From: Cymbomonas tetramitiformis
Lineage: Eukaryota; Chlorophyta; Pyramimonadophyceae; Pyramimonadales; Pyramimonadaceae
Direction of reading: 5' to 3'
Assembly (NCBI GenBank): GCA_001247695.2
Contig: LGRX02035499.1
Span: forward strand, 124,001-188,000
Length of the DNA: 64,000 bases
In this document: in pieces, positions 2-49,666 of the stretch
Layout of the letters: every line of letters starts with the position of its first letter
Position numbering within the stretch: position 1 is the first letter of the stretch
Notes under the pieces: model-generated
The model's input: the letters and a program-made list of their open reading frames with translations, nothing else
The model's database searches: none
What the model was told of the DNA's origin: nothing
Program-made: the position numbers and the translations under genes

Positions 2-844
2 ATGCAGAGGCAGCAGGCAGAGGATCATCGACTGCTGCGTGCTGAGCTTCAACGTCAAGCACAGATCAACGTTGAGCTGGAGGCGAAGGTGGCAGCGAAG
101 CCTGGGACTTCTGACCCGGAATCCGCAGCCAAGTCCGCCGAGCAACTTCTGGAGAGAAGGAAGAAGCTGGACTACGTGCCAGCAGCCTCCGTCAACCCGT
201 TCCCACCGAGGCCGGCGACACTGACAACGAGGATGCCGCAGTTGTACGACCTGCACGGCAGCAAGACGTACGACGCGCTCTCCAAGAAGTCCAACTCTTC
301 GATGAAGTACGAGTGCATGGTTCTGGCTCCAGCGCTGTCTTACTTGCACGACGTGGTGAACGCGTGCAACCAGGCGTTGGACGAGAACGAAGACTGCGGA
401 TTGACGCTGAGAGACTGGCAAAAACACTGCCACGAAGTTACCAACTCGGTCCACGGCATTTATGCGTTGCTTTGCAACCGCTGGACGATGCTGGAACTGC
501 GCGGGCAGCTGGAGCAGGAGCCTGGTTCTTCGCAGCGTGGAGGATCAGACGCTCTACGCGCAAAGCTGCAGTTCGTGGAGGACAGGGTGTACCAGGCAGC
601 AGACGGCGTGGTGGCGGACGAGGTGTTGCAGCAATGGCTGAACGACTTCGACAAGAACCGCGGCAGGGCGATGCTGAACATCACGTCGAAGAACGCAGCG
701 AGCGCGGAAACGCGGGTTGTAAAAGATCCACGGGACCGCGACCGCTGGAAGGAGCGTAAGAACAAAGAGAAGGACGGTACGAAGCAGCCTACCGACAAAG
801 GCGGCGGCAAAGGCCGGGGCGGAAAGCCCGCGGCCGATGCGTGA
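2..844 (+). CDS. gag: Gag-like protein of I-1 (5' partial)
   Basis: At least 280 residues, open to the left edge, so the true start is probably outside the window. The N-terminal part is Gln/Glu-rich and probably coiled coil. A conserved block (about 58-125) contains a Tyr-Val-Pro motif, an NPFP motif, a Pro-Gln-Leu-Tyr-Asp-Leu segment, SKKSNSSMKYE and LAPALSY. The same block recurs in the gag genes of I-5, I-6 and I-3. A second block (VHGIYALLCNR, about 150-160) also recurs. The C-terminus is Lys/Gly-rich and basic, suiting nucleic-acid binding. No zinc knuckle is present, unlike the Gags of families III and IV. The TGA stop (842-844) shares its last A with the ATG of pol (844-846), an overlap that could permit termination-reinitiation. 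The structural role is inferred from position. Confidence 0.75.
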   Translation: MQRQQAEDHRLLRAELQRQAQINVELEAKVAAKPGTSDPESAAKSAEQLLERRKKLDYVPAASVNPFPPRPATLTTRMPQLYDLHGSKTYDALSKKSNSSMKYECMVLAPALSYLHDVVNACNQALDENEDCGLTLRDWQKHCHEVTNSVHGIYALLCNRWTMLELRGQLEQEPGSSQRGGSDALRAKLQFVEDRVYQAADGVVADEVLQQWLNDFDKNRGRAMLNITSKNAASAETRVVKDPRDRDRWKERKNKEKDGTKQPTDKGGGKGRGGKPAADA

Positions 845-2907
845 TGTGCGTGCCGCCACCCCGTCCAGCGCAACAGCCCTCTCCGGGAGCTGGACGGGGG
901 AAACTCACCGTGCAACAGCAGGTGAGACAGCGGAGGGGAGCATGGCGCGCGGCGGGCGCCAGTTCCGAGGTGATGCAATGGATTACTCACGGGGTGAAGT
1001 TGAGGTGGAAGCGCAAGCCTCCGCCTCCGTTCGACCACGGGGTGTCACTGAGGGATGCTACGCGGCAGCAGCAGGTGTGGCTGGACGCGGAGAAGGAGAG
1101 GCTGCTGGAGAAAGGTGCCTGGACGAGAGCGACGAGAAGATCTCACGTTTCTCGCGCTTTTCTAGTGCCAAAACCGGGTACGAACAAGTGGAGACTGGTG
1201 GTGGACTTCCGATGGCTGAACCAGTGGTATGTAAAAAATCGTGTGAAGATGGAGATGCTGAAGAAACTAAGGAGACTGGCGAAACCGGGCGACTGGTGCT
1301 TCAGCTTCGACCTCCAGGACGGTTTTCACGCGCTGGGAATCCACCCGGACTTCCAGAAGTTCATGCAGTTCGACCTGCAAGGGGACCTGCTTCAATGTTC
1401 AGCGATGCCGTTCGGATGGAGCGACGCTCCGAGAGTTTTCTGCAAGTTCGTACGCGTGATGGTGGAGGCTTTGCGTTCTCCACAGGCAGCGGAGGATCGC
1501 AGAGAAATCAAGAGACTGCGGGACGGTTCCGCAGTACGACAGCGATGGTCAGTCCGTCGCAGGACCGGTGGTGCTGGCGGGGACGCGAACCGTCACAGCG
1601 GAATGCGAGTACTACCGTACATGGACGATTTTCTGGTGCTGGTCGACTCTCAGCGAGATGGCTTTCTGCGTCGAGAAAAAGTTCAACTGGTGCTTCATCG
1701 ACTTGGCCTACGGCGGAACGAGAAGAAGGGCCACTGGGAGCCTACGCAGGTGGTGGAGCACCTCGGGCTGGAGGTGGACCTGAAGCTGGGACAATTCCGT
1801 GTGACAGAACGACGGGTGCACAAAATCCACACCAAGGCGAAGGAGATCCTGTGCGACGCAGCGAGAAATCGGAGGTGGATTCCTGCCAGGAGACTGGCGT
1901 CCTTCACGGGACTCTGCCAATCCGTGTACTTGGCAGTACCAGCGGCGCGGCTCTACCTACGGGAGCTCTACTTCGTGCTGGCGGAGAAACGCAGCTGGGG
2001 AGCGAAGGTAAAAATCTCGCGTTCAGCTCGGGGGGACTTAGAATGGTGGTCCAGGCTGCCTGTGATGAGCAGGTGGAACGGGCGCAAGATCTGGAGATCC
2101 CCGACGAGAGCGAAGGTGCACACGGACTCTTCGATGACGGCGTGGGGAGGAGTGCTGAACCTGAAGTTCCCCGCGCGAGGTTTCTGGCCAGACGAGATGC
2201 GCTGCTGGCACATTACACACCTGGAGCTGGAGGCCGTGTACAAGACCGTACAGGCGTTCCTGCAGGAGCTGGAGGGCAAGGTCGTACGGCTCTACTGCGA
2301 CAACCAGGCGGTGGTGGCGATGCTGTCACACTTCACCTCCAGAAACCCGGACCTGATGAGGAGAATGAGGAGACTCTGGCTGCTACTGGATCTGCACGAC
2401 ATCGAGTTGCAGGCTCGGTACATCCGCAGCGAGGCCAACGTGTGGGCCGACAACCTTTCGCGTTGCGAGGATTTGGACGACTGGAGGCTGAATCGGGACT
2501 GGTTCGTGTGGGCCAACAAGCAGTGGGGGCCCTACACAGTCGACCGGTTCGCTTCCGAGATCTCCGCGCAGCTTCCTCGGTACTACGCTGCGTGGAAAGA
2601 CCCGAAGTGCGAAGGTGTGGACTCTCTGACGTACGACTGGCGGGGGGAGAACAATTGGGTGAACCCCCCGTGGGCGCTGCTGGACGAGGTGGCGCACAAG
2701 CTGCGGGAGGAGGGGGCCGCTGCTACGGTGGTGGCTCCGTACTGGCCGGGACAGTCCTGGTTCAGGGAGCTGGAAGCCCTGGCCACCGAGGTGGTGATCA
2801 TGCCACGGCGCAGGGACCTGTTCACTCCGAGCAGGCTGGGAGGGTCCGAGCTGCTCGGGCCCTCAAAATGGGACGCTGTGATGTTCTTCATCGAGGCGCG
2901 CCCGTGA
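844..2907 (+). CDS. pol: Pol of I-1: RT, RNase H and Dam-like methyltransferase-like domain
   Basis: 687 residues. The RT palm has the first Asp motif FSFDLQDGFHALG and the catalytic YMDD at residues 259-262 (DNA 1618-1629). RNase H follows with HTDSSMTAWGG, LELEAVYK, YCDNQAVVAML and YIRSEANVWADNLSR, giving the expected D-E-D-D series. The C-terminal domain contains TVDRFASE, YDWRGENNWVNPPW and VVAPYWPG; NPPW (607-610) resembles the catalytic motif of adenine-N6 methyltransferases, and a Dam-like domain in this position is known from DIRS/PAT elements. I chose ATG 844 because pol of I-5, I-3 and I-6 also begins at an ATG next to the gag stop, with Met-Cys in I-5 and I-6. The protein would copy element RNA into DNA. 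No break is visible. Confidence 0.9.
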   Translation: MCVPPPRPAQQPSPGAGRGKLTVQQQVRQRRGAWRAAGASSEVMQWITHGVKLRWKRKPPPPFDHGVSLRDATRQQQVWLDAEKERLLEKGAWTRATRRSHVSRAFLVPKPGTNKWRLVVDFRWLNQWYVKNRVKMEMLKKLRRLAKPGDWCFSFDLQDGFHALGIHPDFQKFMQFDLQGDLLQCSAMPFGWSDAPRVFCKFVRVMVEALRSPQAAEDRREIKRLRDGSAVRQRWSVRRRTGGAGGDANRHSGMRVLPYMDDFLVLVDSQRDGFLRREKVQLVLHRLGLRRNEKKGHWEPTQVVEHLGLEVDLKLGQFRVTERRVHKIHTKAKEILCDAARNRRWIPARRLASFTGLCQSVYLAVPAARLYLRELYFVLAEKRSWGAKVKISRSARGDLEWWSRLPVMSRWNGRKIWRSPTRAKVHTDSSMTAWGGVLNLKFPARGFWPDEMRCWHITHLELEAVYKTVQAFLQELEGKVVRLYCDNQAVVAMLSHFTSRNPDLMRRMRRLWLLLDLHDIELQARYIRSEANVWADNLSRCEDLDDWRLNRDWFVWANKQWGPYTVDRFASEISAQLPRYYAAWKDPKCEGVDSLTYDWRGENNWVNPPWALLDEVAHKLREEGAAATVVAPYWPGQSWFRELEALATEVVIMPRRRDLFTPSRLGGSELLGPSKWDAVMFFIEARP

Positions 2908-4268
2908 GTTACTACGCTGCTGAAGTACGAAGAAGCTCTGCTACGAGTACGACAGCAAGCAAGGTGACCGTGGGTACGAGAATCGAGGTGTTCTGGGAGG
3001 ACGATGACTGCTTCTACCCGGGTGTGGTGAAGGAGTTCAACGAGGACGGGAAGGCGCACGTGCTGTACGACGACGGCGACGAGGAGACGCTAGACTTGTC
3101 CGAAGAGAACTTCAAAATCATCAACAGCACGGACGAGACAACAGACGCGGACGGCGAGAACACCGAGCGGAGCAGCGGAGGCAACTACGAAGAGTACAAG
3201 CGCGGTGGTGCTGTACAAAATTTCCTCACGCGCTCACTTTGTGAGCGGTGGAGGGGTGAGTTGGGACCTTCCCGGCTCACCGAACTGGCGGTGTCGATGC
3301 AGCAAAAGGCACTGCTGGACACGACGAAGGACAACTACGGACCGAAGGCACGGCGATTCATTTTATTTTGTGAGCTGCACCAACGGCCGTGGCTGCCAGC
3401 GTCGGAGGCGACTGTGTTGCTGTACATCGCCTCTCTGTTGGAGGACGGGAACATCCAGTCGGCATCATTGCAGCCGTACCTGTCCGCCATCAACAACTAC
3501 CACGAGGACCTTGGTCATCCTGGACCAGCGAAGGGGCGCTCTGTGACCCGAGCTGTGAAGGGGATGGCGACCATCCAGGCGGAGCTGGCCGTGCAGGAGC
3601 AGAACATCGAGACCCAGCGGACGTGGCTGCCAGCAGCACACGTACGACGGGTGCACGAGGCAGCGCTGAAGTTAAATCCGAGATCGCCTGAGGAGCTGCA
3701 GCTACTGCGAGCCTTTACCTACGTGGTGGTGGCCTTCGTGACCTTCGGCAGACCGGACACGGGGACCTCGTTGTCACGGCAGCACGTTCATTGTGGCGAC
3801 GATGAGTTCTCAGTGGTGCTGCTGAAGGAGAAGGGACGGCGACACCATCGAGTGAAGCGACGCCTTACGATCCCCTGGAAGGGGGTGGCTCTGTTGAAGG
3901 AGCTGATCGAGCACTGGGAGTTCTACCGTGACACAGCTTGGAGCATTTCTGCGAAGACTCAACCTGACGGCTACTGGCTGCTACCCGAGGACCCGAAGAA
4001 CTTCAAGGCTTCCGTGGCAAACGACTGGATTGGTCTAGCTCTCAGCGAGCTGGACTGCAGACCTCCTGAAGGAGGTCACTTTTCTGCACACAGCACCCGG
4101 AAGGGTGCCACGACGTGTGCTCGAGCTGTGGGTGTTACAATGGAGAAAGTGTGCTTCCTGGGAGGCTGGTCACAGTTCTCTTCGGCAGTGCAACACTACA
4201 TCGACCCGACAGCTCTGAGGGACACAGACATGGACTACTACTTCGCTTGGTTAACATGGTCACAGTGA
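2868..4268 (+). CDS. Tudor-like domain fused to tyrosine recombinase (I-1)
   Basis: About 466 residues from ATG 2868, which overlaps the pol end by 40 nt in the -1 frame; initiation here is not proven. DNA 2964-3120 encodes a Tudor/Agenet-like fold signature: RIEVFW, then FYPGVV, then VLYDDGDEE and LDL, as in chromatin-binding Tudor domains. The recombinase follows: an N-terminal SAM-like core-binding region (KALLDTTKDNYGPKARRF to AINNYHEDLG) and a catalytic domain with Arg in FGRPDTG (about 295), HSTR (408-411), GGW and the Tyr nucleophile in HYIDP (about 444). The R-HxxR-W-Y set is complete. Its role is to recombine circular cDNA into the genome. Whether the Tudor part guides integration to marked chromatin is an inference. 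Confidence 0.85.
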   Translation: MGRCDVLHRGAPVSYYAAEVRRSSATSTTASKVTVGTRIEVFWEDDDCFYPGVVKEFNEDGKAHVLYDDGDEETLDLSEENFKIINSTDETTDADGENTERSSGGNYEEYKRGGAVQNFLTRSLCERWRGELGPSRLTELAVSMQQKALLDTTKDNYGPKARRFILFCELHQRPWLPASEATVLLYIASLLEDGNIQSASLQPYLSAINNYHEDLGHPGPAKGRSVTRAVKGMATIQAELAVQEQNIETQRTWLPAAHVRRVHEAALKLNPRSPEELQLLRAFTYVVVAFVTFGRPDTGTSLSRQHVHCGDDEFSVVLLKEKGRRHHRVKRRLTIPWKGVALLKELIEHWEFYRDTAWSISAKTQPDGYWLLPEDPKNFKASVANDWIGLALSELDCRPPEGGHFSAHSTRKGATTCARAVGVTMEKVCFLGGWSQFSSAVQHYIDPTALRDTDMDYYFAWLTWSQ

Positions 4269-4318
4269 CAGAGATCAGATTTCTTGTGTGTGCCTCACAG
4301 TTTCATCTTTGGTTTCAT

Positions 4319-4705
4319 GGCAAATGAGGATTCGAGCAAAAGAGAAATGTTCAAATTGGAGTGCAACAGAATTTTTGTGGTTTCAGACTTTCAGAATCCG
4401 TGACTCCTGCTGCAGTAGAGCCGAATGACACATGTAGCTCCGTGACACAAACAGGATGTACAAGTAGCCACGAAGCGACACGCCTGTTCAGCTCTGTTCC
4501 TTTTGCTCTTCCCACCGCTCCCGACCCAGAGGACTCTTTCCTTTTGGTGACGTGCACAGACAGTCTGGACATCTCATCAAAAACATGAATTTAGAAAGCA
4601 TGTAAAAAGCACAAAATGCATTTTAAACACTTTACAAAATCATTTTAATGAAATGTATTGCAGTGCCTGCCTTTGGCAAATGAGGATTCGAGCAAAAGAG
4701 AAATG
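4319..4705 (+). repeat. B1-A2-B2 3' terminal block of I-1
   Basis: B1 4319-4349 and B2 4675-4705 are the same 31 bases, ending in GAAATG. A2 starts at 4350 (TTCAAATTGG) and includes the family signature CTCTGTTCCTTTTGC near 4494. The A1 partner is outside the window. No gene lies in the block. Confidence 0.8.
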
Positions 4706-6078: not shown

Positions 6079-6154
6079 AATCGATTAAATCAAATAATTC
6101 GTGTCATTCTTTTTCAGAGCCGACTGTCATATCTTTGTATAATTTTTCATAAGC

Positions 6155-11401: not shown

Positions 11402-11691
11402 CAATTAAAGCGTAGAGGAATTTTAGGGGTTTGGCTCAATTCAAAATCATTGTGACCAGTGACACGTGTGCCACTGTCGAGTGACTGTGACGGTGACGGT
11501 TCGAGAAGAGTGGCAAATGTACATAATGGCCACCGACAGTTGGTGCCACAACTCTGTTCCTTTTGCATTCGCAAAAAGAACCTCACGTGAACACCTGTTA
11601 AGAGTTCACTGTGTGGCACACTGCAATCTACTTTGAATGATTTCTACTTTCAGTTTTTACATTGCTTCTCCTAGGAACCTAAGTTTTCTAG

Positions 11692-13190: not shown

Positions 13191-14560
13191 ATGACGAGGG
13201 CCGAGATCCCGGCTGGGACGAGGCTCAAGGTGTTCTGGGAGCTGGATGATCCTTGGTACCCGGGTGTCGTACAAGGCTACAATGACGACGGCTGCGCGGA
13301 TCTCCTATACGATGACGGTGAGGAGGAGACAGTGGACCTCGCCGAGGAAGTTTTCAGCGTCATCACGAACGTTGAGAACCCCTACGGCGAGCGGAACATT
13401 AGAACGCCGAGGAGAAAACAGCGGACTTCCTCGATGAGTGTACGACGGGCATCGCGAGGACATCGGACCTCACTGTCGGCGACACGGTGAACAAGATCAA
13501 GGGATTTTTCCAGCAAGCTCCGCGACAACGGTGGAGAGCGGAGCTGGGGGCAGTAGAACACACCAAGCTGGCCGTGAAGATGCAAGAAAACGCCCTACAG
13601 CATGTCACAAAGGGCAACTACGAGCCGAAGGTGGAGAAGTTCGTGTTATATTGTCAACAACACGGGAGAGACTGGCTGCCAACGAGCACAGCCACGGTGT
13701 TGCTCTACCTGGCCTCGATCTTAGAGGCTGACCGGATCCAGGCAACGTTGTTGCAGCCATATTTGTTGGCGATTAATGGCTACCACGAGGACCTCGGCTG
13801 CGAGACGCCAGCAAGAGGCCAGAGTGTGATTCGTGCTGTAAAGGCATGGCTTTGCTCCAAGCGGATTGTGCGGCGGACACGGGGGACATCGTCACGGAGA
13901 GGACGTGGTTGCCGGCACAGCACGTGTGAACGGTGCAACAGACAACAGAGAGGATGACACCGAGCACGTCGGAGGAGCTGCGGCTACTCCAAGCCTACGT
14001 CTACACAGTGTTTGCGTTCGTCATGTTCGGCAGACCGGACACGGGCGTGGCAATGCAGCGGGAGCACATCAGCTCGACAGTGGACGTGCTGTCGGTGGTG
14101 CTGCTGAGAGAGAAAGGGAGAGAGTCATCACCAGGTGCAGATCCCCTCGGAGGGGGTCAAGAGACTCCAAGGATTGCTCGAGACCTGGCAGGTACAGTGG
14201 GACCTGACTTGCAGGAAGCACGACACTTCGTGATCTCCGAGGGACAATGTGAAAGGCCGCTACTGGAAGCGGACGGGCGATCGGGGTACTTTTGTGGGTG
14301 CCTCGTTTGCTAATGAATGGATCCAGCTTGCTCTGGACACACCGGGTGCCTTCCCCTGGAGGGAGGACACTTTACTGCATACAACACTCGAAAGGGAGCG
14401 GCCACCGTCGCTCGAGGTTGCTTTTGTGGACACAATGTTGGAGAAAGTTTGTTTTTTTGGGGGATGGTCACAGCTGTCAAGTGGTGTACACCGGTACATC
14501 GACCCTACGGCCGTGTTCGACGAGCACATGAAGCACTTCTTCGGGTGGATGGCACCGTAG
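13191..14560 (+). pseudogene. Tudor-recombinase pseudogene of I-2
   Basis: From ATG 13191 the Tudor-like block is intact (RLKVFW, WYPGVV, LLYDDGEEE, VDL; about 13207-13370). The core-binding region (NYEPKVEKFVLYC, AINGYHEDLG) follows after a frame change. The catalytic Arg (FGRPDTG) is at about 14028, but frameshifts separate it from GGWSQ-type and RYIDPTAV-type sequence at 14450-14510. The HSTR motif is scrambled (YNTRKGAATV in a different frame). The gene is clearly broken. Confidence 0.75.
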
Positions 14561-14609: not shown

Positions 14610-15010
14610 GCAAATGAGTGTTTGTAGCAAAGGGAAATCTTCAAATTGAAGCCTAGTGGGATTTAAGCGGTTTGGCTCAATTCAAAATCATTGTGACCAG
14701 TGACACGAGTGACACTGACGAGTGACCGCAACGGTTCGAGTACAATGGCAAAACAATGACAAATGTATATGATGGCCACCGACGGTCGGGGCCACAAGTT
14801 TGTTCCTTTTGCATTGACTCCTCTCCCAACCGAAGTATCTCTGTAAGCCTTTTGTATGGTATGCCAGGTGAAATTAAATAGTGCCAGGTAGACAGTGGGA
14901 CTTTCAGTAAAATATGATTTGTGCCACCCATGAGCTGGTGGACACAAACTTTAATGAAAATCATAGCAGTGATACCTTTTGGCAAATGAGTGTTTGTAGC
15001 AAAGGGGAAT
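14610..15010 (+). repeat. B1-A2-B2 block of I-2
   Basis: B1 14610-14638, A2 about 14639-14812, spacer, B2 14982-15010. A1 and A2 stop matching just after CCTTTTGCATT, inside the loop of the A1 hairpin described separately. Confidence 0.8.
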
Positions 15011-15046
15011 CCATCCAAAAATATCGAGATATCGTGAGATCCATAC

Positions 15047-15182: not shown

Positions 15183-15300
15183 CTGCATGGCACATCAAAC
15201 GGACGGCGTCACATACTGTCAAGAACTTCATGACGTTAGGTGTGGTAGATGCTTGATGGATAGCTCACGTCCGAGACAAGATTTGGGTATTTAAATTTAT

Positions 15301-15692
15301 TTTGCACACGGATTCTAATGCCAAAAGGCACACTGCCTGCTATCTATTACAAACAATAGCTTTTGTCTGACCAGTGCTGTCGAAGCTACCAGCTAGACTT
15401 ACCAAAGTTAGTGAAAGTCTATTATGACGGATCTTTTTTCGTCCATTCAAAGGAATAGAGATTCCTGGGTTGGGTGGGTTGGGAAGGCAAAAGGAACAGA
15501 GCTAAATCGACATCCGGCTCCCCGGGCTTTGCCGGTTCTCGAATTTCTAGAATGTTGAGTTTCGAACCGTCGTTACCGATGACTGTCGGACTCGTCCTAG
15601 CAAGAGTACAATGAGATTCACACGTGGCAAAAACCACTAAAGTTCCGCAAGCTCCACTTTTTACATTGCTTTTGCACACGGATTCTAATGCC
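15301..15692 (-). repeat. B2-A2-B1 terminal block of I-3
   Basis: On the plus strand: B2 15301-15322, spacer, A2 15483-15666, B1 15671-15692. A2 differs from A1 (19363-19545) at scattered sites, so the copy is not very recent. Confidence 0.75.
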
Positions 15693-15713
15693 ATGTCATA
15701 GAGATCGTCGTCC

Positions 15714-17010
15714 TCATTCTACACAATCTTGCACAACACTTCTACCTCGCCATCCCGGTGCTAACCACCCGAAGTAACAGACCATGTCGTTGTCCACCAC
15801 TGCTGTGGGTTCGATGTAAGCCAGCACTGTCGAAGATAACTGGCTCCACCCCCCGAAGTAGCACACCTTCTCCATCACCACACCCACTGCACGTGAGCAC
15901 GTTGTTACACCCTTCCGAGTGCTGTGAGCAGTGTAATGACCTCCCTCGGGAGGCAAACAGCCCACGTGTTGTAAGGCTCCTCTGATCCACACGTTGGCCA
16001 CGTCGGCCTTGATCTGCTTGCCAGATTCCCACAGCAGCCTCCAGTAGCTGTCCGTGCCTGCTGTCCTGGATGTCCTTGTCGGTGCACCCCGCAGCCATGC
16101 TTCCTCTCGAGCTGTCTCCCATAGCTCGAGAAGATCGTGCAGGCCCTCCACCCCGTCCACCGGGATGAAGAGCCGTCGTTTAATCAGTAGGTGATTCCTT
16201 CCTTTCTCCTTCTCCAGCACCACCGAGAGCCTACTGCTGTCATGCAGCAGACTCCCCCGTAACATCGCCGTACCTGTCTGCGGTCTGCTGACGGTCACAA
16301 AGGCCACCACTACGTACACACAAGCTCGCAAGAGCTCCACCTTCTCGTTCGTGTCTAGCACGATCCTCCTTGCTGCCTCGTGCACCCGTCTCACTGCCGC
16401 AACCGGCAGTCACGTCCTCAATGTCTCCATGCAGCCTTGCTCCTCTGCTGCCTCCGTTTGCCGCGCCGTCATCCCCTTCACAGCCCGTGTGACAGTACGC
16501 CCCTTCGCATGCCTTGCGTAGCTGAAGTCCTCGTGGTAATTGTGGACTATCGAGAGGTACGGTTGCAAGGATGAACCCTTGACCGTACCCCTCTTCAACG
16601 GGAAGGCGATGTACAACCGTATAGTCGCCTCCGTTGCTGGCAACCAGACTCGCCCTTCACTCACACAGAAGTCCACGAACTTACGCCAGTGCCCCTCGTA
16701 GTTGCCTGCTGCCGACAACTGTAAGGCTGCAACCTACATTCTCGCTTCTTCCCCCGCCAGAGAGCTGTCCCCCAACTTCCCTGCCCAGTGCTGCACCAAC
16801 GCCGTCCTCCGCGTCGTTCTTTGCACGGGGATCTCGGTGGTCAGCAGCCGATACTTCTCTTCTTTCAACTCGAGGTACTCCAAGTCTCCGTCGTCGTACT
16901 CGATTTTTCTTTTTCCATCAGAACCTGTCTCCCTCACCGTCCCGGGGTACTAAACCTGATCCACTAGCCAAAATATCTCTATTTTGTGGCCAGGTCTCAT
17001 CTCGTCGTTC
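15714..17010 (-). pseudogene. Tudor-recombinase pseudogene of I-3
   Basis: Reading right to left: KIEIFWLVDQV, a TAG (16950-16952) where I-5 has Trp, then YPGTV and KIEYDDGDLEYLEL complete the Tudor-like block. The core-binding part (NYEGHWRKFVDFCV to YLSIVHNYHEDF) and the catalytic domain follow, with Arg in VSRPQTG, AHSTRKG, GGWSQ and AYIEPTAV. The catalytic set R-HxxR-W-Y survives, but at least two stops or frame changes lie upstream of it (16720-16735 and 16394-16410). Confidence 0.75.
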
Positions 17011-17098
17011 TCCTCGATGGTCTCCATCATCGTCTCCACCCCCCTCTCACGTAAGTAGCAATTCACCGGGAGCTGGGGATGTGAAACATGACCGCGTC

Positions 17099-18315
17099 TC
17101 AGTCTGATGCTCCGAGCAGCACGGACCCGCCCAACCTGCTCGGAGTGAATAGATCTCGGTGCCGTGGCATGATCACCACCTCAGCTGACAGCGCCTCCAA
17201 CTCTCTGAACCAGACCTGCCCTGGCCAGTAAGGAGCTACCACCGTAGCCGCTGCATCCTCCTCTCTCAGCTTGTGGGCCACCTCGTCCAGCAGCTCCCAC
17301 GGCGGATTCACCCAGCTGATCTCCCCCCGCCAATCAGCGAGTCCACGCCTTCGCACCCCGGGTCGTGCCACCCGCTGTAATACCTCTCGACTTGCCAGGA
17401 GAGCTCCGAGGCGAAGCGGTCCACGGTGTGCTCCCAGTGTCCCTTCTTCTCGTTTCGGGTTAACCCAAGACGAACAAGAAGCCGGACACTCGATCTCTCG
17501 ACATGAAGGCTTCGTCCGACGTCCTACGTCTTCGCAATCACCAAGAAATCGTCCATGTACGGCAACACCCTCGCCCCAGCCTGATCCGCGCCACGACAAA
17601 GTCCAGCTTCTCCCCCAACGTCGTCGTATAGCTTGACCCCCGAGCTTCTTGATCTCCCGTCGATCCTCTCCTGCTTGAGGGGACCGAAGCAACTGCACGA
17701 GTGTCTTCATGAACTTGACAAATACCCGTGCTGAATCTTACCACACAAAAGGGAGTGCTCCGCACTGGAACAACTCCCCCCCGATGTCGAACTGCATGAA
17801 CTTTAGAAAGTCCGGGTTGGTCCCCACCGCGTGATAACCGTCCTCGAGATCGAAGGAGAAGCACCAGTCTCCGCTGCTCGCCAGCCGCTGCAGCTTCTTC
17901 AAGGTCTCCATCTTGCACCTTGACTTTACGCAGAAGAAGTGTAGCCACCGCAGATCCATCACCAGCCGCCACTTGTTCGTGCCGAGCTTCGGCACCAAGA
18001 ACACCCGCGAAACGTGGCCTCTTCGGTGTGCCCGTACCCGCGCACCAGACTCCAAAGCCTGCTTCTTCTCGATGAATAACCATTGCTGCTGCCCCTCCGT
18101 CAGATCCCGTAGCGAGGTGCCGTGATCGAACTTCGGTGGTCGGCCTTTCACCCACCGCATCTTCGCTCCTCGCGCGCGATTCATTGCAGTGCTTCGCTGC
18201 TCGCGCCCCCTGCGCGCCATGCTCCCTTGCGAGTGCGTACCTCCTCCTGCATCGTATGCCTCTTGACTCGAACCCCCGGAGGAACAGGGGTTAGGTCAGG
18301 TACCGATAGGCTCAT
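17099..18315 (-). pseudogene. pol: Pol pseudogene of I-3, RNase H deleted
   Basis: ATG 18315-18313 follows the gag TAA by one base (TAAAATG), as in I-5. The RT N-terminal part is readable (SRVFLVPKLGTNKWRLVMDLRW, FSFDLEDGYHAVG) up to a stop near 17738. YMDD is encoded in a shifted frame near 17555. At about 17445 the sequence jumps from the NEKKGHWE segment directly to HTVDRFASE, deleting the whole RNase H domain. The methyltransferase-like part retains ISWVNPPW and VVAPYWPGQVW. Confidence 0.75.
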
Positions 18316-18316
18316 T

Positions 18317-19237
18317 TTACTGTACGAGTCTAGTGCCCTTGGCACCCTTACCTGCTAGATGAGGCGTCGGCGTCGATGGCGCTCCTCTCCCTCGGCCTAC
18401 ACCAAGCTGACCGATGCGATTGTTGCTCCGAGTAAACGACGCCTTTGCTGACACCGCCGCCTGCTTCGCCGTCGCCGTCATCCCCGCACAAGACTTCGTC
18501 GCGTCGAACTCCTCCAGCCACTTCTTCATCACAATGTCACCGACGACCCCCTCGGCTCCGGCATTCACCTTTTCCTTCATGAAGCCTAGCTTGGCGCGCA
18601 CCGTATCCGTGCCTCCGCCCTCCGTGTCGAGCGAAGCCCGCAACGTCAGCATCGTGTAACGGTTGCAAAGCATCGCATACACACTTTTCTAGGTGGTATG
18701 CGCCCTAGCAAGCCGGTCGTAGAGCTCGTCGACATTGTGGCTGCCCCACTGGCAAAGCCTACAACCAGTCCATCGTCACCTCCTCGTCGACTACCGCGTC
18801 GTGGAAGTATGCGAGGCCCGGACCCAAGATCATCTGCTCGTACTTCATAGACGAGTTCGACTTCTTGCTCAGAAGAGCGTGGGTCTTGTAACCATGCACG
18901 TCGTAGACCTTGGGCATCAGATCGGTCGGTGTGTCCGGCCGCGCCGGGAAAGGTTGACCTGAGCGTAGGGGAACGTAGGGAGCTTTTTCTTCAGTTCTAG
19001 CTCCGCGTTCCCTGTCGTCTTCGCGGCCTCCTTGTCGCCTTTAGAGGTGCTTGCGCCCTCTTGCAACTCAGACCACTTCATCGCAGCCGCGTGCTGTTCT
19101 TGTTGATTCGCGAATTTTAAATTCATCAGCTGCACCTCCGTCTGTTGAGGCGCGAGCTCAGGCGAGTTAGGCACTGGAGCAGGCGTGGTGCTGTCCGTGG
19201 ATGTGTCTGGCTCGTCCGCGTTACCGTCACCAGTCAT
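18317..19237 (-). pseudogene. gag: Gag pseudogene of I-3
   Basis: ATG 19237 (MTGDGNADEPDTSTDSTTPA) starts an acidic, Thr/Pro-rich N-terminus followed by a Gln-rich, probably coiled-coil segment. A frameshift in the NPFP motif (near 18950) ends the first frame. The second half (MYAMLCNRYTMLTLRASLD to GKGAKGTR) is open to TAA 18319-18317. It is very similar to the I-5 Gag. Confidence 0.75.
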
Positions 19238-19362
19238 TGTGCTGGATCGATTCCGGTAAAAGTCCTAGTAATCTTAATTCTGTGTAGAGTGTAAGTGTCG
19301 TTAATTTGCAGTGTGCCGCACAGGAAAATTCCTCAGAATATTTCCGTGAAGGTCCTTTTTCC

Positions 19363-19545
19363 GAAGGCAAAAGGAACAGAGCTGAACCGACATCCGGCTC
19401 CCCGGGCTTTGTCGGTTTTCGGATTTCTAGAATGTCGAGTTCCGAACCGTCGTTACCGACGACTGTCAGACTCGTCCTAGGAAGAGTAAAGTGAGATTCA
19501 CACGTGGCACAAACCACTAAAGTTCCGCAAGCTCCACTTTTAAAC
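19363..19545 (-). repeat. A1 terminal repeat of I-3
   Basis: Matches A2 at 15483-15666. The end next to the leader (19363) lies in the loop of an imperfect hairpin GTTCCTTTT...AAAAGGACC read on the minus strand. Confidence 0.75.
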
Positions 19546-19710
19546 ATTCCTTTTTGCTTGCACTTGAGTTTGCCAAAAGGCACACAGCTCCCATCCGCTA
19601 CAGTGATAGTGTTTTAAAATTTTACATAAGAAGGTCGCGAATCCCTCATTCCTCTCGTGTGTCTCCAATATAAGTTAACTTCTACACCTAGGATGTCTCC
19701 TCAAAAAAAT

Positions 19711-19888
19711 GGTTAAATTGGAGCCTGCGAAAATCTAGTGGTTTCTGCCACGTGTGAATCTCACTGTAGTTCCCTAGAACGAGCCCGACAGTCGTCACAC
19801 GACGGTTCGAGGCTCGTGTCCAGGAAATCCGAAACTGACTAAGTCTCGAAAACCGACCATCGGTTCAGCTCTGTTCCTTTTGCCTTCC
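19711..19888 (+). repeat. A1 repeat of I-5
   Basis: 178 bp, matched by A2 24421-24598 with two transitions (in the AAGTCTCGAA segment). Identity stops at GCCTTCC, in the loop of the hairpin at 19873-19899. It should include the 5' end of the element RNA, but no promoter motif was identified. Confidence 0.9.
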
Positions 19889-20013: not shown

Positions 20014-20970
20014 ATGGCTGAAGACGGTGACGCGGGCAAGGCAGGCAAGTCAGGGGAGGGTCCCACACCCGTCCCAATGCCTACTGAGCCCGAACTCACG
20101 ACCGAACAAGTCGAGAAGAAGTTACTCGACCAGAAATTCGAGAATCAACAGCTGCAGCACGCGGCTGTGATGCAACAGCACGCCCTTTCAATCGCGTTGC
20201 TCACGGAGCAAGTGAAAGGCCTGAGGGAGAGCGCGAGCTCTTCCAAAGGCGAGGCTGCGACCACGAAGACGACGGGCGACGCGGAGCTTGAGGCCAAGAA
20301 GCAGCTCCCCTACGTCCCCTACGCCCCTGTCAACCCGTTCCCCTTGCGTCCTTCGACGCTGGAGGACTTGATGCCCAAGGTCTACGACCTCTACGGCGAC
20401 AAGACTCACGCACTCCTGTGCAAGAAGTCGAACTCGACAATGAGGTACGAGCAAGCGACCCTGGGACCTGCCCTCGCCTACTTCCACGACGCGGTCGTGT
20501 ACGAGGAGGAGGCCATGGACTGGATGCAGGGGGCGCCTCGGGCGCCAATGTCTGTCAGCGAGTGCGACGAGCTCTGGGATCGGATGGTGAGGTCGCATAA
20601 CACCAAGAAAGGTGTGTATGCGATCCTCTGTAACCGGTACACGATGCTGACGCTGAGGGCCTCGCTCGACGCGGAGGGCGGAGGCACTGACGCCGTGAGG
20701 GCAAAGCTGGCCTTCATGGAGGAGAAGGTGAACGCCGGAACCGAGGGCGTTGTTGGCGACTCAGTGATGAAGAAGTGGCTTGAGGAATTCGACTCCTCCA
20801 AATCGCGCTCATTGATGACGGCGACAGCGAAGCAGGCGGCGCTGGCGGCCAAGGCGACCCTGGGTGGGCGCAGCGACTCCCGTATCGGCCAAGGACGAGG
20901 AGGACGAGCGCCATCGACGCCCAGTACAGCAACGGGTAAGGGTGCTAAGGGCTCCCAACCCGCCAAGTAA
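20014..20970 (+). CDS. gag: Gag-like protein of I-5
   Basis: 318 residues from ATG 20014, the first ATG after the leader. Residues 1-30 are acidic and Pro-rich; about 30-75 is a Gln-rich probable coiled coil (VEKKLLDQKFENQQLQHAAV). The conserved family I block follows (YVPYAPVNPFPLRP, PKVYDLYGDKTHALLCKKSN, LGPALAYFHD), then KKGVYAILCNRYTMLTLRAS and a basic Gly/Lys tail (GQGRGGRAPS). No zinc knuckle or protease motif is seen. It presumably forms the nucleoprotein particle in which reverse transcription occurs. The TAA stop (20968-20970) is one base before the ATG of pol. Confidence 0.85.
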   Translation: MAEDGDAGKAGKSGEGPTPVPMPTEPELTTEQVEKKLLDQKFENQQLQHAAVMQQHALSIALLTEQVKGLRESASSSKGEAATTKTTGDAELEAKKQLPYVPYAPVNPFPLRPSTLEDLMPKVYDLYGDKTHALLCKKSNSTMRYEQATLGPALAYFHDAVVYEEEAMDWMQGAPRAPMSVSECDELWDRMVRSHNTKKGVYAILCNRYTMLTLRASLDAEGGGTDAVRAKLAFMEEKVNAGTEGVVGDSVMKKWLEEFDSSKSRSLMTATAKQAALAAKATLGGRSDSRIGQGRGGRAPSTPSTATGKGAKGSQPAK

Positions 20971-20971
20971 A

Positions 20972-23029
20972 ATGTGCCTATCGGCACCAGACCTGACCCC
21001 TGTTGCTCCGGGGGTTCAGGTCAAGAGGCGTACCCTCCAGGAGGAGGTACGCTCTCGGCGGGGAGCATGGCGCGCAGGTGGCGCGAGCAGCGAAGTGCTG
21101 CAATGGATCGCTCGTGGAGCGAAGATGCGGTGGGTGAAAGGCCCACCACCCAAGTTCGACCACGGTACGTCGTTGAAGGACTTGACGGTGGCGCAGCAGC
21201 AATGGTTGTCCATCGAGAAGGAGCGAGCGCTGCTGTCGGGCGCTTGGGTGAGAGCACATCACCGAAGCCACGTATCCCGCGTCTTCTTGGTGAAGAAGCC
21301 CGGCGAGAACAAGTGGCGGCTCGTGATGGATCTGAGGTGGCTAAACTTCTTTTGCGTGAGGTCGCACTGCATGATGGAGACTCTGAAGAAGCTGCGGAGG
21401 CTGGCGAGCGAGGGCGACTGGTGCTTCACCTTCGATCTCAAGGACGGCTACCACGCAGTGGGGATCGACCCGGAGTTCCAGAAGTTCATGCAGTTCGACA
21501 TCCAAGGGGAGTTGTTCCAGTGCGGAGCACTCCCCTTCGGGTGGTCGGATGCACCGAGGGTCTTCGTCAAGTTCATGAAGACGCTCGTGGAGTTGCTCCG
21601 GTCTCCTCAGGCGGGAGAAGATCGGCGAGAGATCAAGAAGATGCTCGGGGGAAAAGCTGTTCAGCGACGATGGGCTGTGAGGAGGCGCGAAGGTGGACTT
21701 TACCGAGGAGCGGACCAGGCTGAGGCGAGGGTACTGCCGTACATGGACGACTTCATGGTGATTACGAAGACGAGAGACGAGGCCTACTTTCAGCGAGATC
21801 GCGTTACTCGTCTTCTTTCTCGACTCGGGCTGAGTCGAAACGAGAAGAAGGGAGTTTGGGAGCCGACGCAAGTGGCCGTGCACCTGGGGCTGGAGGTGGA
21901 CTTGAAGGACGGGTTGTTCCGCGTGACGGAGGATCGTCTACAGAAAATCCACGCGAAAGCCAAGGGGCTGATCTGTCGAGCTGCTCGAGAGAAGCGATGG
22001 GTGCAAGCTCGGGAGCCGGCGGGGTTCAACGGCCTCTGTCAGTCAGTGTATCTGGCGGTACCAGCGGCGAGGCTGTACCTCCGCGAGCTCTATTTCGTCC
22101 TGGGCACGAAAAAGAGCTGGGGATCCAAGGTGAAGCTGACAAGGCAAGCCTGGGGAGACCTGGAATGGTGGGCGCGACTGCCGGCTTCGAGCCGGTGGAA
22201 CGGGCGCAAGATCTGGAGAAGCCCGACGAGGGCGAAGTTGCACACGGACTCCTCGATGTACGCTTGGGGAGGTGTGCTCAACCTGAAGAAGGAAGCGAGG
22301 GGCTTCTGGCCGGACGAGCTCAGGGAGTGCCACATCACGCACTTGGAGCTCGAGGCCGTGCACAAGACGGTGAGATCCTTCCTGACCGAGCTGGAAGGGA
22401 AGGTCGTGCGGCTTTACTGCGACAACCAGGCGGTGGTGGCGATGCTTTCGCACTTCACGTCGCGGAATCCCGAGCTAATGAGGAGGATGAGGAGACTCTG
22501 GAAGCTGCTGGACCTGCACGACATCGAGTTGCAAGCCCGGTACATCCGCAGCGAGGCGAACGAGTGGGCAGACCGTCTGTCCAGGGACAAAGACTTAGAC
22601 GACTGGAGGATCAACCGCAAGTGGTTCGACTACGCCGAGACGGCTTGGGGCAAGCACACGGTGGACCGCTTCGCTTCGGAGTTATCTCGGCAAGTCGCGA
22701 GGTACTACAGCGGGTGGCACGATCCGGAGTGCGAGGGCGTGGATTCGCTGGCGTACGACTGGCGGGGAGAGACCAACTGGGTCAACCCGCCGTGGCGGCT
22801 ACTGGACGAGGTGGCCCACAAGCTGCGGGAAGAAGGAGCAGCAGCAACGGTGGTGGCGCCCTACTGGCCAGGGCAGGCGTGGTTCCGAGAGCTGGAGGCG
22901 CTGTCAGCCGAGGTGGTGATCATGCCCCGACAGCGAGATCTGTTCACTCCGAGCAGGCTGGGAGGGTCCGTGCTGCTCGGAGCCTCCGGCTGGGACGCAG
23001 TCATGTTTCATATCCCCAGCTCCCAGTGA
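20972..23029 (+). CDS. pol: Pol of I-5: RT, RNase H and Dam-like methyltransferase-like domain
   Basis: 685 residues from ATG 20972, one base after the gag stop (TAAAATG); Met-Cys also starts pol in I-1 and I-6. RT motifs: SRVFLVKKPGENKWRLVMDL, FTFDLKDGYHAVGID and YMDD at 257-260. RNase H: HTDSSMYAWGG, LELEAVHKTV, YCDNQAVVAML and IRSEANEWADRLSR. The C-terminal methyltransferase-like domain has TVDRFASELS, YDWRGETNWVNPPW (NPPW 605-608) and VVAPYWPGQAWF. All catalytic residues expected for RT and RNase H are present. It overlaps no stop, and termination-reinitiation from gag is plausible. The end overlaps the -1 frame used by the recombinase. Confidence 0.92.
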   Translation: MCLSAPDLTPVAPGVQVKRRTLQEEVRSRRGAWRAGGASSEVLQWIARGAKMRWVKGPPPKFDHGTSLKDLTVAQQQWLSIEKERALLSGAWVRAHHRSHVSRVFLVKKPGENKWRLVMDLRWLNFFCVRSHCMMETLKKLRRLASEGDWCFTFDLKDGYHAVGIDPEFQKFMQFDIQGELFQCGALPFGWSDAPRVFVKFMKTLVELLRSPQAGEDRREIKKMLGGKAVQRRWAVRRREGGLYRGADQAEARVLPYMDDFMVITKTRDEAYFQRDRVTRLLSRLGLSRNEKKGVWEPTQVAVHLGLEVDLKDGLFRVTEDRLQKIHAKAKGLICRAAREKRWVQAREPAGFNGLCQSVYLAVPAARLYLRELYFVLGTKKSWGSKVKLTRQAWGDLEWWARLPASSRWNGRKIWRSPTRAKLHTDSSMYAWGGVLNLKKEARGFWPDELRECHITHLELEAVHKTVRSFLTELEGKVVRLYCDNQAVVAMLSHFTSRNPELMRRMRRLWKLLDLHDIELQARYIRSEANEWADRLSRDKDLDDWRINRKWFDYAETAWGKHTVDRFASELSRQVARYYSGWHDPECEGVDSLAYDWRGETNWVNPPWRLLDEVAHKLREEGAAATVVAPYWPGQAWFRELEALSAEVVIMPRQRDLFTPSRLGGSVLLGASGWDAVMFHIPSSQ

Positions 23030-23031
23030 GC

Positions 23032-24372
23032 TGCCACTTACGTGGGAGGGGAAATGAAACGGTGGTGGAGAACCTCGACGATCATGAAGAGGTGAGATCT
23101 GGCTGCAAAATAGAAATATTTTGGCCGGATGATCAGCTCTGGTACCCTGGGACAGTGGGGGTGACAGGAGCTAACGGTAAGAGAAAAATCGAGTACGACG
23201 ACGGGGACATCGAGTTCCTCGAGCTGAGCAAGGAGAAGTATCGGCTGCCGACAGCCGAGGCTCCGACGTTGGAGCCAACGTGGAGAACGGCAATGTTAGC
23301 GCACTGGTCAGCCAAGTTGGGAGACGGAGCCCTGGCGGACGAGGCAGCAGAGATGCAGGCGGCGGCGCTGCGGCCTTCTACGGCAGGGAATTACGAAGCC
23401 CACTGGAAGACCTTCGTGGACTTCTGTGTGGAAGAAGGATTGCCCTGGTTGCCGGCAACTGAGGGCACCGTACTGAAGTACATCGCCTTCCAGAAGCGGC
23501 GAGGAACGGTGAGAGGATCTTCTCTGCAGCCGTACCTCTCAGCAATCAACAATTTTCACGAAGACTTTGGGCACGACGGGCCAGCTAAAGGGCGTGCTGT
23601 CACTAGGGCCGTGAGAGGCATGACGGCGATGCAGACAGAGGCAGAGGAGGAGCAAGGTTGCTCGGCAACGGAGAGGACGTGGCTGCCGGCTGCGGCAGTA
23701 CGTCGGGTGCACCAGGCAGCAGATGAGATCGTGGTGGACAGTCGTGAGAGCCTGGAGCTCTTACGATCCTGTGTGTACGTGGTGGTGGCCTTTGTAACCT
23801 TCGGCAGACCTCAGACAGGTACGGCAATGCTGAGGGAGAGTCTACTGCGGGACGGCAGTGGGCTCTCGGTGGTGCTGCAGAAGGAGAAAGGGAGGAACCA
23901 CACGAGAACAAAACGGAGGCTCCGAATCCCGGTGGACGGGGTGAAGGGCCTCCACGAACTGCTCGAGCTGTGGGAAACGGCTCGAGATGACGCATGGCTG
24001 AACGATGCACCGACGAGGACATCAAGGACAGCAGGCACGGCCAGCTACTGGAGGCTGCCGTGGGAATCTGGCAAGCACATCAAGGCCTCGGAGGCCAACG
24101 TGTGGATCGGAGAGGCTTTACAACACGTGGGCTGTGTGCCTCCGGAAGGAGGGCACTACTCAGCCCACAGCACTCGGAAAGGTACAGCAACGTGTGCACG
24201 TGCAGTGGGGGTGACGATGGAGAAGGTGTGCTTCTTCGGGGGGTGGAGCCAGCTGTCATCAGCAGTGCTGGCTTACATCGACCCCACTGCAGTGGCGGAC
24301 AATGACATGACCTACTACTTCGGGTGGTTAGCACCGGGATGGAAAAGTGCTCTGCAAGATTCAGTAGAGTGA
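23032..24372 (+). CDS. Tudor-like domain fused to tyrosine recombinase (I-5)
   Basis: About 446 residues. The frame is -1 relative to pol and has no ATG between the pol end and the Tudor domain; the first ATG is downstream of the Tudor block. Expression could use -1 frameshifting, a non-AUG start or an upstream ATG inside pol (the frame is open from 21856). The given start is simply the first codon after the pol stop. Tudor block: KIEIFWPDDQLWYPGTV and KIEYDDGDIEFLEL (about 23095-23250). Recombinase: core-binding region (NYEAHWKTFVDFC, AINNFHEDFG), Arg in FGRPQTG, AHSTRKG, GGWSQLSSAV and the Tyr in AYIDPTAV. The set R-HxxR-W-Y is complete. Confidence 0.85.
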   Translation, partial: CHLRGRGNETVVENLDDHEEVRSGCKIEIFWPDDQLWYPGTVGVTGANGKRKIEYDDGDIEFLELSKEKYRLPTAEAPTLEPTWRTAMLAHWSAKLGDGALADEAAEMQAAALRPSTAGNYEAHWKTFVDFCVEEGLPWLPATEGTVLKYIAFQKRRGTVRGSSLQPYLSAINNFHEDFGHDGPAKGRAVTRAVRGMTAMQTEAEEEQGCSATERTWLPAAAVRRVHQAADEIVVDSRESLELLRSCVYVVVAFVTFGRPQTGTAMLRESLLRDGSGLSVVLQKEKGRNHTRTKRRLRIPVDGVKGLHELLELWETARDDAWLNDAPTRTSRTAGTASYWRLPWESGKHIKASEANVWIGEALQHVGCVPPEGGHYSAHSTRKGTATCARAVGVTMEKVCFFGGWSQLSSAVLAYIDPTAVADNDMTYYFGWLAPGWKSALQDSVE

Positions 24373-24390
24373 CGACAATCTCGGGGAAAT

Positions 24391-24789
24391 GGCAATTAGA
24401 ATCCGTGTGCAAAAAGAAATGGTTAAATTGGAGCCTGCGAAAATCTAGTGGTTTCTGCCACGTGTGAATCTCACTGTAGTTCCCTAGAACGAGCCCGACA
24501 GTCGTCACACGACGGTTCGAGGCTCGTGTCCAGGAAATCCGAAACTGACTAAGTCTTGGAAACCGACCATCGGTTCAGCTCTGTTCCTTTTGCCTTCCCA
24601 ACCCACCCAACCCAGGAATCTCTGTTCCTTTTGAATGGACTGAAACATATCCATCAATAATAGACATTTCCTAACTTTCGTAAGTCTGGCTGGGAACTCA
24701 GACAGCCCTGGTCAGACAAATGCTATTCTTTGTAATGGATGGCAGGCAGTGTGCCTTTTGGCAATTAGAATCCGTGTGCAAAAAGAAAT
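24391..24789 (+). repeat. B1-A2-B2 terminal block of I-5
   Basis: B1 24391-24420, A2 24421-24598, spacer 24599-24759, B2 24760-24789. B1 and B2 are identical over 30 bp. The spacer contains a second CTCTGTTCCTTTTG word at about 24620. Confidence 0.9.
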
Positions 24790-25165: not shown

Positions 25166-25336
25166 CCCCAATGATGCATCGCACACTGCAGTCACACTTT
25201 ACACGCATCATTGCTACTAAAATTATCTCTACTTTTTACATCTACCCATATTTTGGCAGCAGCCAGCCGAACTACCGCCTCATGCCAATCTCCACCCTGG
25301 CTGCTAGGTCAATATACCTGTGCATCGACTCAGATC

Positions 25337-26020
25337 CCTGAGCCCTGCCACCCAAGAAACACACTCGTTCCATCCGCACTCCGATTGCCCAAGTTGCAGT
25401 CATTGCACCCTTCCTGGTGCTATGTCCAGAAAAATGTCCACCCTATGGGGGAACACAGGTTGGGTGCAGCAGGGCCAGCTTCATCCTGGCATTATCCATC
25501 GATCCACTCCAACTTGTCGAAGTCTCTCCAGGCAACTTCCAGTAGCGCTCTCCCTCAGTAACTGTCCTCGAGCTGCCTCCCACACTCTGAGACGCTCCAC
25601 CAATCCACATACTGCATTCTCCGGGAACACTGGTCGTCTCTTCTCCTTGAGATGGCTGCTTCTCTTCTCCTTCCGGAGCACAAAGGAAACCTCAACACCA
25701 TCCAAACACACATCCTCACCTCGCAGACCCACTCCAGTGTCCGGTCTGCCCAATGTGACAAAGGCCACCACCATGTAGATGCATGCCCTCAACAACTTCC
25801 TTGTAACCTCTCCTTGCACAGCCTGCTCGTGAATTTTCTCTACGTTCCGAGCTGGCAACCACGTCCTCTCCGTGCACCTTCCAACATCTCCTACGGAGCC
25901 GCCGTCTGCAAAGCCTCCATGCCTTTCACAGCCCTGCTGACAACTCTGCCTTTAGTAGCCGGTCCCAGAAATTCCATGTTATCATAGTAATTGTTGACGG
26001 CCGACAAGGGAATGAAAAGG
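25337..26020 (-). pseudogene. Tyrosine-recombinase remnant of I-4
   Basis: Reading right to left: AVNNYYDNMEFLGPATKGRV, KGMEALQT, LPARNVEKIHEQ, LLRACIYMVVAFVTLGRPDTGV with the catalytic Arg, a diverged HSTRKG-type motif near 25420 and HRYID near 25340. The Trp of GGW reads Arg. Stops and shifts separate the segments. The Tudor and core-binding N-terminal parts are missing: a deletion joins pol directly to the AVNNYY segment. Confidence 0.65.
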
Positions 26021-49224: not shown

Positions 49225-49271
49225 AGTTATTGTGGGTGGAGGCGGCAATGCACCAAGTCATCTCTGATCAT

Positions 49272-49666
49272 GGCATATTTGTGTTTTGCAGCAAAGAGGA
49301 AATGTGTGAATTGGAATGCAGTGTAATTTTTGTGGTTTAGTCTGATTAAAAAATCATTGACCAGTGACACGTAGGCACGGTAGGTGACAGTAACGTCCCA
49401 AGAGACTGTGACAATGTATATAATGGCCATGAACTGTCGGGGCCGCAGCTCTGTTCCTTTTGCTGATTCCCTCCGCTCCCATCCCAGCTAACTCTGTAAG
49501 CCTTTTGGGGTAAGTCTGGCCGGTAACTTAAACAGTGCCGGCATACCATGGACTTTCACTAAAATGTGATTCATGCAACCAGCAAGCTGGTGGACATGAA
49601 CTTTATTAAAATCATATAGCAGTGTAGCCTTTTGGCATATTTGTGTGTTGCAGCAAAGAGGAAATG
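49272..49666 (+). repeat. B1-A2-B2 block of I-6
   Basis: B1 49272-49304, A2 from 49305 (TGTGAATTGG) to about 49475, spacer, B2 49634-49666. B1 and B2 are 33 bp with one difference. The same B type ends the solo copy at 52361. Confidence 0.8.

Follow-up and report, generated by a model that had tools for sequence, protein, structure and literature searches.

A Tudor-like domain fused to the tyrosine recombinase of PAT-type retrotransposons in the green alga Cymbomonas tetramitiformis

Introduction

Split direct repeats are reported to be the mark of the PAT group of retrotransposons, which holds TOC and Kangaroo (PMC3266345). These elements of green algae encode a tyrosine recombinase, and their published descriptions, by which they are compared here, mention no Tudor domain in the parts available. 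In the DIRS/PAT scheme an RT-RNase H with a methyltransferase domain is also found. To our knowledge, the choice of insertion sites by tyrosine-recombinase retrotransposons is poorly known.

Fusions of a chromatin reader with an enzyme of insertion are described for another class. Chromodomain Gypsy elements (chromoviruses) carry a Royal-family reader fused to the inserting enzyme, and they insert with target duplication. Their chromodomains are thought to guide LTR element insertion (PMC6696364). Gypsy-10_Ec32, a Ty3/Gypsy element of the brown alga Ectocarpus, has a Tudor domain at the C-terminus of its polyprotein; its authors know of no transposable element with such a domain reported earlier (PMC12477816). 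Tudor domains in many cases recognize marks on histones. Among host proteins, the Tudor domain of Arabidopsis RDM15, a protein of RNA-directed DNA methylation, was solved with an H3K4me1 peptide (7DE9). It has an aromatic cage of W616, Y623 and Y641; the two protons on the monomethylated amine are bound by D643 and D645, and H3R2 is bound by E647 and Q654 (PMC8184781).

Here we analyze a 64,000-base stretch of Cymbomonas tetramitiformis DNA (contig LGRX02035499.1, positions 124,001 to 188,000; hereafter the window), which contains several copies of a retrotransposon family, family I, with a predicted Tudor domain on the recombinase. This domain is similar to that of RDM15 in fold, in sequence (about 40% identity), in the aromatic cage and in the two acidic residues for monomethyl-lysine, but it is located at the N-terminus of a retrotransposon recombinase and has E in the place of Q654. 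Compared with Gypsy-10_Ec32, which is likewise an algal transposable element with a Tudor domain, family I has a tyrosine recombinase, an N-terminal domain and a green algal host. The chromodomain Gypsy elements, which offer a model of how the fusion may work, differ in the reader, in the enzyme class and in the end of the protein that carries the reader.

Results

Tudor matches in the window

In a six-frame scan of the window with an 11-seed Tudor profile (filters off), five matches were obtained (i-E 5.9e-30 to 3.2e-20), while the next-ranked entry had an E-value of 0.29. Every one of the five is directly upstream of a family I recombinase detected by tblastn. The copies, named a to e, and a sixth copy are as follows.

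2964..3119, plus strand: copy a, Tudor domain (i-E 5.9e-30; 7DE9 match)
2868..4268, plus strand: copy a, open frame of Tudor and tyrosine recombinase with Cre-like fold
13209..13358, plus strand: copy b, Tudor domain, in a different frame from the decayed recombinase at 13403-14551
16845..16997, minus strand: copy c, Tudor domain with one internal stop codon (i-E 4.8e-21)
23092..23247, plus strand: copy d, Tudor domain (i-E 9.2e-28)
23248..24372, plus strand: copy d, tyrosine recombinase in one open frame with the Tudor domain (profile and tblastn)
47879..48031, plus strand: copy e, Tudor domain; the recombinase downstream extends to about 49215 and is interrupted by stops and a late frameshift
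25260..27889, minus strand: sixth, decayed family I copy, without Tudor match

A preliminary description of this DNA had placed the same block in five family I copies, in frame with the recombinase, and had found it lacking in families II to V. All five places were recovered by the profile scan. The common frame held for two of the five copies, a (2868-4268) and d (to 24372), and did not hold for the other three: the Tudor and recombinase of copy b are out of frame with each other, copy c has stop codons, one of them within the Tudor, and copy e has stops as well as the frameshift. The scan agrees with the restriction to family I in that it found no Tudor match beside the other recombinase-like frames of the window (33440-34474, 62260-63087 and 6239-7597), which match the family I recombinase profile weakly (E = 7e-4, 5e-4 and 0.028, respectively). 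In the sixth copy no match was obtained where the RT frame ends and the recombinase begins. A chance motif was ruled out by the profile E-values and by there being only five matches in the window.

Element architecture and genomic copies

The repeats and RT frames of the window copies were located as follows.

Contig position about 123418, outside the window: copy a, repeat A1 (A1 in L001 418-580)
760..2907, plus strand: copy a, RT - RNase H - Dam-like methyltransferase ORF (Pfam RVT_1 8.4e-12, RT_RNaseH 2e-5, Dam 1.1e-5; Dam at 25.6 bits, under the gathering score of 28.1)
4318..4349, plus strand: copy a, repeat B1, 32/32 identical to B2; A2 begins at its 3' end
4674..4705, plus strand: copy a, repeat B2, the right element end (from junctions)
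11403..11569, plus strand: copy b, repeat A1, the left end (80% to A2 14644-14815)
14610..14639, 14644..14815 and 14982..15011, plus strand: copy b, right repeats B1, A2 and B2 (B1/B2 97%)
15289..19556, minus strand: copy c, with decayed RT, Tudor and recombinase
Near 19350-19556, 15482-15660, near 15670-15693 and near 15289-15323, minus strand: copy c, repeats A1, A2, B1 and B2
19703..19888, plus strand: copy d, repeat A1, the left end (98% to A2 24413-24598)
20819..23029, plus strand: copy d, RT - RNase H - Dam-like frame (72% to the copy a protein across 683 aa)
24390..24420, 24413..24598 and 24759..24789, plus strand: copy d, repeats B1, A2 and B2, the last being the right end (B1/B2 31/31 identical)
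49271..49304 and 49633..49666, plus strand: copy e, repeats B1 and B2 (97% identical)

Copy d thus has the order A1 - coding region - B1 - A2 - B2, which is that of split direct repeats. Within the window the repeats are complete in copies b, c and d, and A1 of copy e was not found. The DIRS1 type, with inverted terminal repeats and an internal complementary region, was ruled out since copy d ends in direct repeats; long inverted arms in the window lie between two oppositely placed copies. The chromodomain Gypsy type, with a DDE integrase and a C-terminal reader, was ruled out by the tyrosine recombinase with its N-terminal Tudor.

The genome of the alga (852 Mb assembly) was searched for further copies, and 97 of 3491 first-look candidates were scored. 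All 97 scored matches include the Tudor domain, 88 of them are free of stops, and they are 97-100% identical across Tudor and recombinase, which indicates that family I is young and recently active. In this search the window lies at 124001-188000 of contig C25309, and one further observation is a 99% identical Tudor-recombinase copy with one stop at C25309:117440-118732, about 9.5 kb upstream of copy a. From the 97 matches 20 genomic copies were chosen, mostly on long contigs, and 16 of these are stop-free over the full 1305 bases. B1 and B2 were detected in all 20 (B2 partial in L013) and A1 in 18 (partial in L009), and the 18 copies with A1 have an element length of 5245-5457 bases. No flank repeat longer than 2 bases was found in the 18 copies with both ends, 16 of which are clean on both sides, so these insertions are without target duplication. 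The split direct repeats, the RT - RNase H - Dam-like ORF and the lack of target duplication identify family I, as far as its sequence can indicate, as a PAT-type tyrosine-recombinase retrotransposon of the DIRS order. Furthermore, the insertion flanks vary between copies, which, together with the lack of target duplication, suggests a recombinase with little site specificity.

Other repeats and frames were observed in the window. Two arrays of a 29-base unit (9931-10012 and 10627-10708), about 0.6 kb apart, are mutual reverse complements (28/29 bases) and could be the ends of a foldback element. A 234-base segment is repeated at 24899-25132 and 35935-36168 with 95.7% identity, and at 32163-33446 an RT-RNase H frame of another family resembles Dam weakly (3.2e-5, under the gathering score).

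Fold and conserved residues

A PDB profile search with the fused proteins retrieved the RDM15 Tudor structure 7DE9 at E = 1.8e-11, and one sequence alone retrieved it at 5.3e-8. By Foldseek, the AlphaFold model of the full protein matched 7DE9 with a TM score of 0.84, an rmsd of 0.8 Å and 40% identity, and with the domain-only model 7DE9 was the sole match under 1e-3. In the model, five strands (39-44, 49-58, 64-68, 73-76 and 83-85) form a barrel, which is placed shortly before the core-binding domain. The Pfam Tudor models remained below their gathering scores for copy a (22.6/28, 20.9/31 and 18.8/27.2 bits), these scores being thresholds for naming and not a defining feature of Tudor domains. 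Out of 12 members, 8 were matched by PTM_DIR17_Tudor with E-values up to 0.01, the relative P0087 has PF18359 in its precomputed annotation, and some of these hypothetical proteins are already labelled automatically as 'Tudor domain-containing' in public databases.

The residues of RDM15 were then compared with the proteins listed by the homolog searches (120 of 147 and 120 of 154, mostly from Cymbomonas). Among the matches listed, 107 of 150 homologs had a Tudor match, 67 had at most 8 gaps, and 62 of these were distinct. In these 62 listed rows the cage aromatics are kept in 59 (W616), 55 (Y623) and 59 (Y641). In the acidic pair, D643 is D in 55/62, and D645 is D in 55/62 and E in 6/62 of the listed rows. 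At the H3R2-pocket positions E647 is E in 57/62, and Q654 is replaced by E in 59/62 among the same matches. The methyl-lysine residues of RDM15 are preserved in most of these homologs. P0072 keeps the Tudor profile match, yet two of its cage aromatics are lost, with V at the Y623 position and D at that of Y641.

Recombinase, translation start and selection

The recombinase has the core-binding and catalytic fold with the HxxR and Tyr motifs. The best protein match obtained was CYMTET_46881 (97% identity), in agreement with the source of the window in Cymbomonas. In copy a, the ATG of the recombinase frame at 2868 overlaps the end of the RT ORF, which is in another frame. An ATG at this position is found in 19 of the 20 genomic copies, these being near-identical to one another, and copy d has no ATG within the 144 bases scanned.

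Between copies c and d, the Tudor domain has dN 0.161 and dS 0.548, and the recombinase dN 0.182 and dS 0.646. The Tudor of copies b and e has dN 0.194 and dS 0.981, and for the remaining eight Tudor pairs dS is above 1.1 or undefined. Across 19 young genomic copies the pooled pairwise pN/pS (from pairs that are not independent) is 0.27 for the Tudor, 0.23 for the linker, and 0.36 and 0.21 for the core-binding and the catalytic domain, respectively. The Tudor value comes from no more than 6 synonymous and 6 nonsynonymous changes. Because the linker is equally constrained, a low pN/pS in young copies is not special to the Tudor. Over longer distances the two diverge in conservation: among 10 diverse proteins the Tudor aligns in 45 pairs (coverage 0.96, mean identity 0.43), while the linker is comparable in 6 pairs only (coverage 0.55, identity 0.27). 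These values indicate purifying selection on the Tudor domain comparable to that on the recombinase, and a fusion that is selectively maintained. The sequence profile and the structure models, as well as the conserved residues and the signs of selection, strongly support the proposal of the preliminary description that the block is a Tudor-like domain on a tyrosine recombinase.

Distribution of the fusion

A tree was built from the 29 rows that covered at least 85% of the recombinase among the matches listed, three of them window copies. A Tudor match (E up to 0.01) is present in 21 of the 29 listed rows, which belong to several subclades, and is partial in P0021 and P0026; the presence label changes four times on the recombinase tree. 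The family I group has 22 rows (support 90/99, not starred), and 19 of them have the Tudor among the matches listed. Within this group P0123 retains the end of the domain and P0037 is without it. P0008 begins downstream of the Tudor, which is located in the preceding gene model, P0060 (CYMTET_31407/31408), on a contig of equal length. The distant metagenome proteins P0072 and P0087 are also Tudor-bearing, and their grouping may be a long-branch effect; five other metagenome relatives have no Tudor in their predicted proteins. With the Tudor region alone as a query, 36 proteins were obtained, and all those with an organism name are from Cymbomonas. No relatives were confirmed in IMG/VR or GTDB contigs, where 13 and 19 stretches fitted a pattern, and none was found in phage records.

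Insertion sites and clustering

In L005, the point at which a young family I copy (937-6192) is inserted is precisely the B1/A2 junction of an element from a different family I subfamily, and rejoining of the flanks gives a continuous junction of the kind seen in copy d. This is the arrangement that recombination of a circle junction with a similar site would produce. Similarly, copy c (minus strand) has a left flank (19557-19590) that resembles the right end of a further family I element. Family I copies thus seem to stack at each other's ends, and in a hand-picked sample of 20 genomic copies with no random control, a second family I element lies within 2.5 kb in the flanks of four (L005, L006, L007 and L017). 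Only one pair among the 97 scored matches is on a common contig. Given L005 and the left flank of copy c, such clustering can come from recombination at element ends and not from targeting.

Two other flanking regions were observed. The right flank of copy a (4706-6078) enters an open frame resembling the RT-RNase H of another retroelement family, which suggests that copy a is nested in another retroelement. The segment 52001-52257, with 74% similarity to the copy e A2 region, may be a solo fragment from a further family I element.

A Tudor domain on a hAT-type transposase

A search of the same genome with PTM_DIR17_Tudor (PF21743), in which 150 of 1611 candidates were scored, gave 123 matches at E up to 1e-3, of which 8 loci were examined. 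None of the 8 has a family I recombinase. Seven (L021-L023 and L025-L028) belong to one related family, with 63-100% identity to L022. L022 and L028 exceed the Pfam cut-off of PTM_DIR17_Tudor (40.9 and 38.5 vs 27.2 bits) and also that of the hAT dimerisation region (33.2 and 25.0 vs 21.4 bits). The representative is the following.

L022 1-2202, same genome, outside the window: hAT-type transposase with the Tudor in the middle

No such transposase was found in the window. Like the family I recombinase, it is a mobile-element enzyme with a Tudor; it differs in belonging to a DNA transposon and in its mid-protein Tudor of PTM/DIR17 type, which reaches the Pfam cut-off. Two of the three RDM15 cage aromatics differ in the hAT Tudor (pairwise alignment), so we take it to be a separate capture. 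The sequences indicate that Tudor capture occurred in more than one element class of this genome. In the literature searched, no Tudor on a hAT transposase was found. In addition, L024 has a 568-aa open frame (970-2676) with a Tudor over the Pfam cut-off (41.0 vs 27.2 bits) and a low-complexity tail.

Discussion

We propose, with a probability of about 0.58, that the selectively kept, RDM15-type Tudor domain of family I reads methyl-lysine and guides the recombinase to marked chromatin; histone binding, the identity of the mark and the effect on target choice are the parts of this reading that we infer. The Tudor domain would bind a methylated lysine on a histone tail, for which H3K4me1 is the first candidate because the nearest solved relative reads this mark with residues that are kept here. 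This binding would tether the recombinase, together with the circular DNA intermediate, to marked chromatin, and the recombinase, having little DNA-site specificity, would then insert wherever the mark lies. With so little site specificity something else may choose the targets, and steering of integration by the Tudor domain is plausible by analogy with the chromodomain elements. The finding that a hAT-type transposase of the same genome also has a Tudor gives slightly more confidence in this reading. Against it count the E found at Q654, the H3R2 contact, in 59/62 rows among the matches listed, P0072, which is without two cage aromatics, and the failure of copy a to reach any Pfam Tudor gathering score.

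The barrel might read no histone and be part of the recombination machine, with Gag, the DNA of the element or a further recombinase subunit as its contact. Binding to DNA or to proteins is common among SH3-like barrels, and such a role would fit both the position of the domain shortly before the core-binding domain and P0072, where the fused domain persists despite the loss of two cage aromatics. We regard it as unlikely, since it is the methyl-lysine residues of RDM15 that are preserved, and since this histone reader is the best match by structure, far ahead of other barrels by Foldseek E-value. Rather improbable, in our view, is that histones are read for another step than target choice, such as chromatin retention, nuclear retention of the circle or the countering of silencing. 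RDM15 is reported to connect H3K4me1 to an RNA-directed silencing complex (PMC8184781), and the element is likely to be under silencing pressure in a genome whose published assembly consists to 68.3% of interspersed repeats (PMC10675990); however, the Tudor is fused to the integrating enzyme itself, like the chromodomains on Gypsy integrases, and this points to the insertion step. That the Tudor is an accidental passenger, untranslated with the recombinase or functionless, is very improbable, for although three of the five window copies are broken and the recombinase, whose translation may start by reinitiation, frameshift or splicing, is encoded in a different frame that overlaps the RT ORF, the domain is under purifying selection like that of the recombinase, occurs in 21 of the 29 near-complete recombinase rows among the matches listed, in several subclades, and lies in an open frame in 88 of the 97 scored genomic matches.

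If the Tudor domain guides insertion by reading H3K4me1, the outcome would depend on what this mark labels. In Chlamydomonas, H3K4me1 is reported at the promoters of silent genes, and a lower level of the SET1 methyltransferase leads to lower H3K4me1 and to release of TOC1 (PMC6952782). In a green alga the mark may thus label silent chromatin that already carries related elements, and if Cymbomonas resembles Chlamydomonas, new copies would go into already silenced chromatin around the kin of the element. For land plants, H3K4me1 is associated with gene bodies and promoters and with repair (PMC13361950), which predicts a different target and speaks against homing to silent chromatin. It is doubtful, though conceivable, that a captured H3K4me1-type reader homes the element to the silenced chromatin of its kin, with the silencing mark as insertion address, and that capture of readers by unrelated element classes may recur in this host.

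Reader-fused integration enzymes are known from another class, and what appears to be new is the reader on a tyrosine recombinase. In the literature searched, which included few subscription papers, no Tudor or chromodomain on a tyrosine recombinase was found, in line with the earlier statement that such a fusion is undescribed; the Tudor on a Gypsy element of Ectocarpus, reported in 2025, concerns another class of transposable element. If the proposed reading is true, the capture of chromatin readers would have taken place not only with DDE integrases but also with tyrosine recombinases and with a hAT transposase of this same alga. For the study of recombinase targeting, a Cre-type enzyme on which a small module for reading methyl-lysine works would also be of interest. 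Because its cage residues are preserved and a single genome contains many young copies, family I makes chromatin-based target choice testable in this class of retrotransposons.
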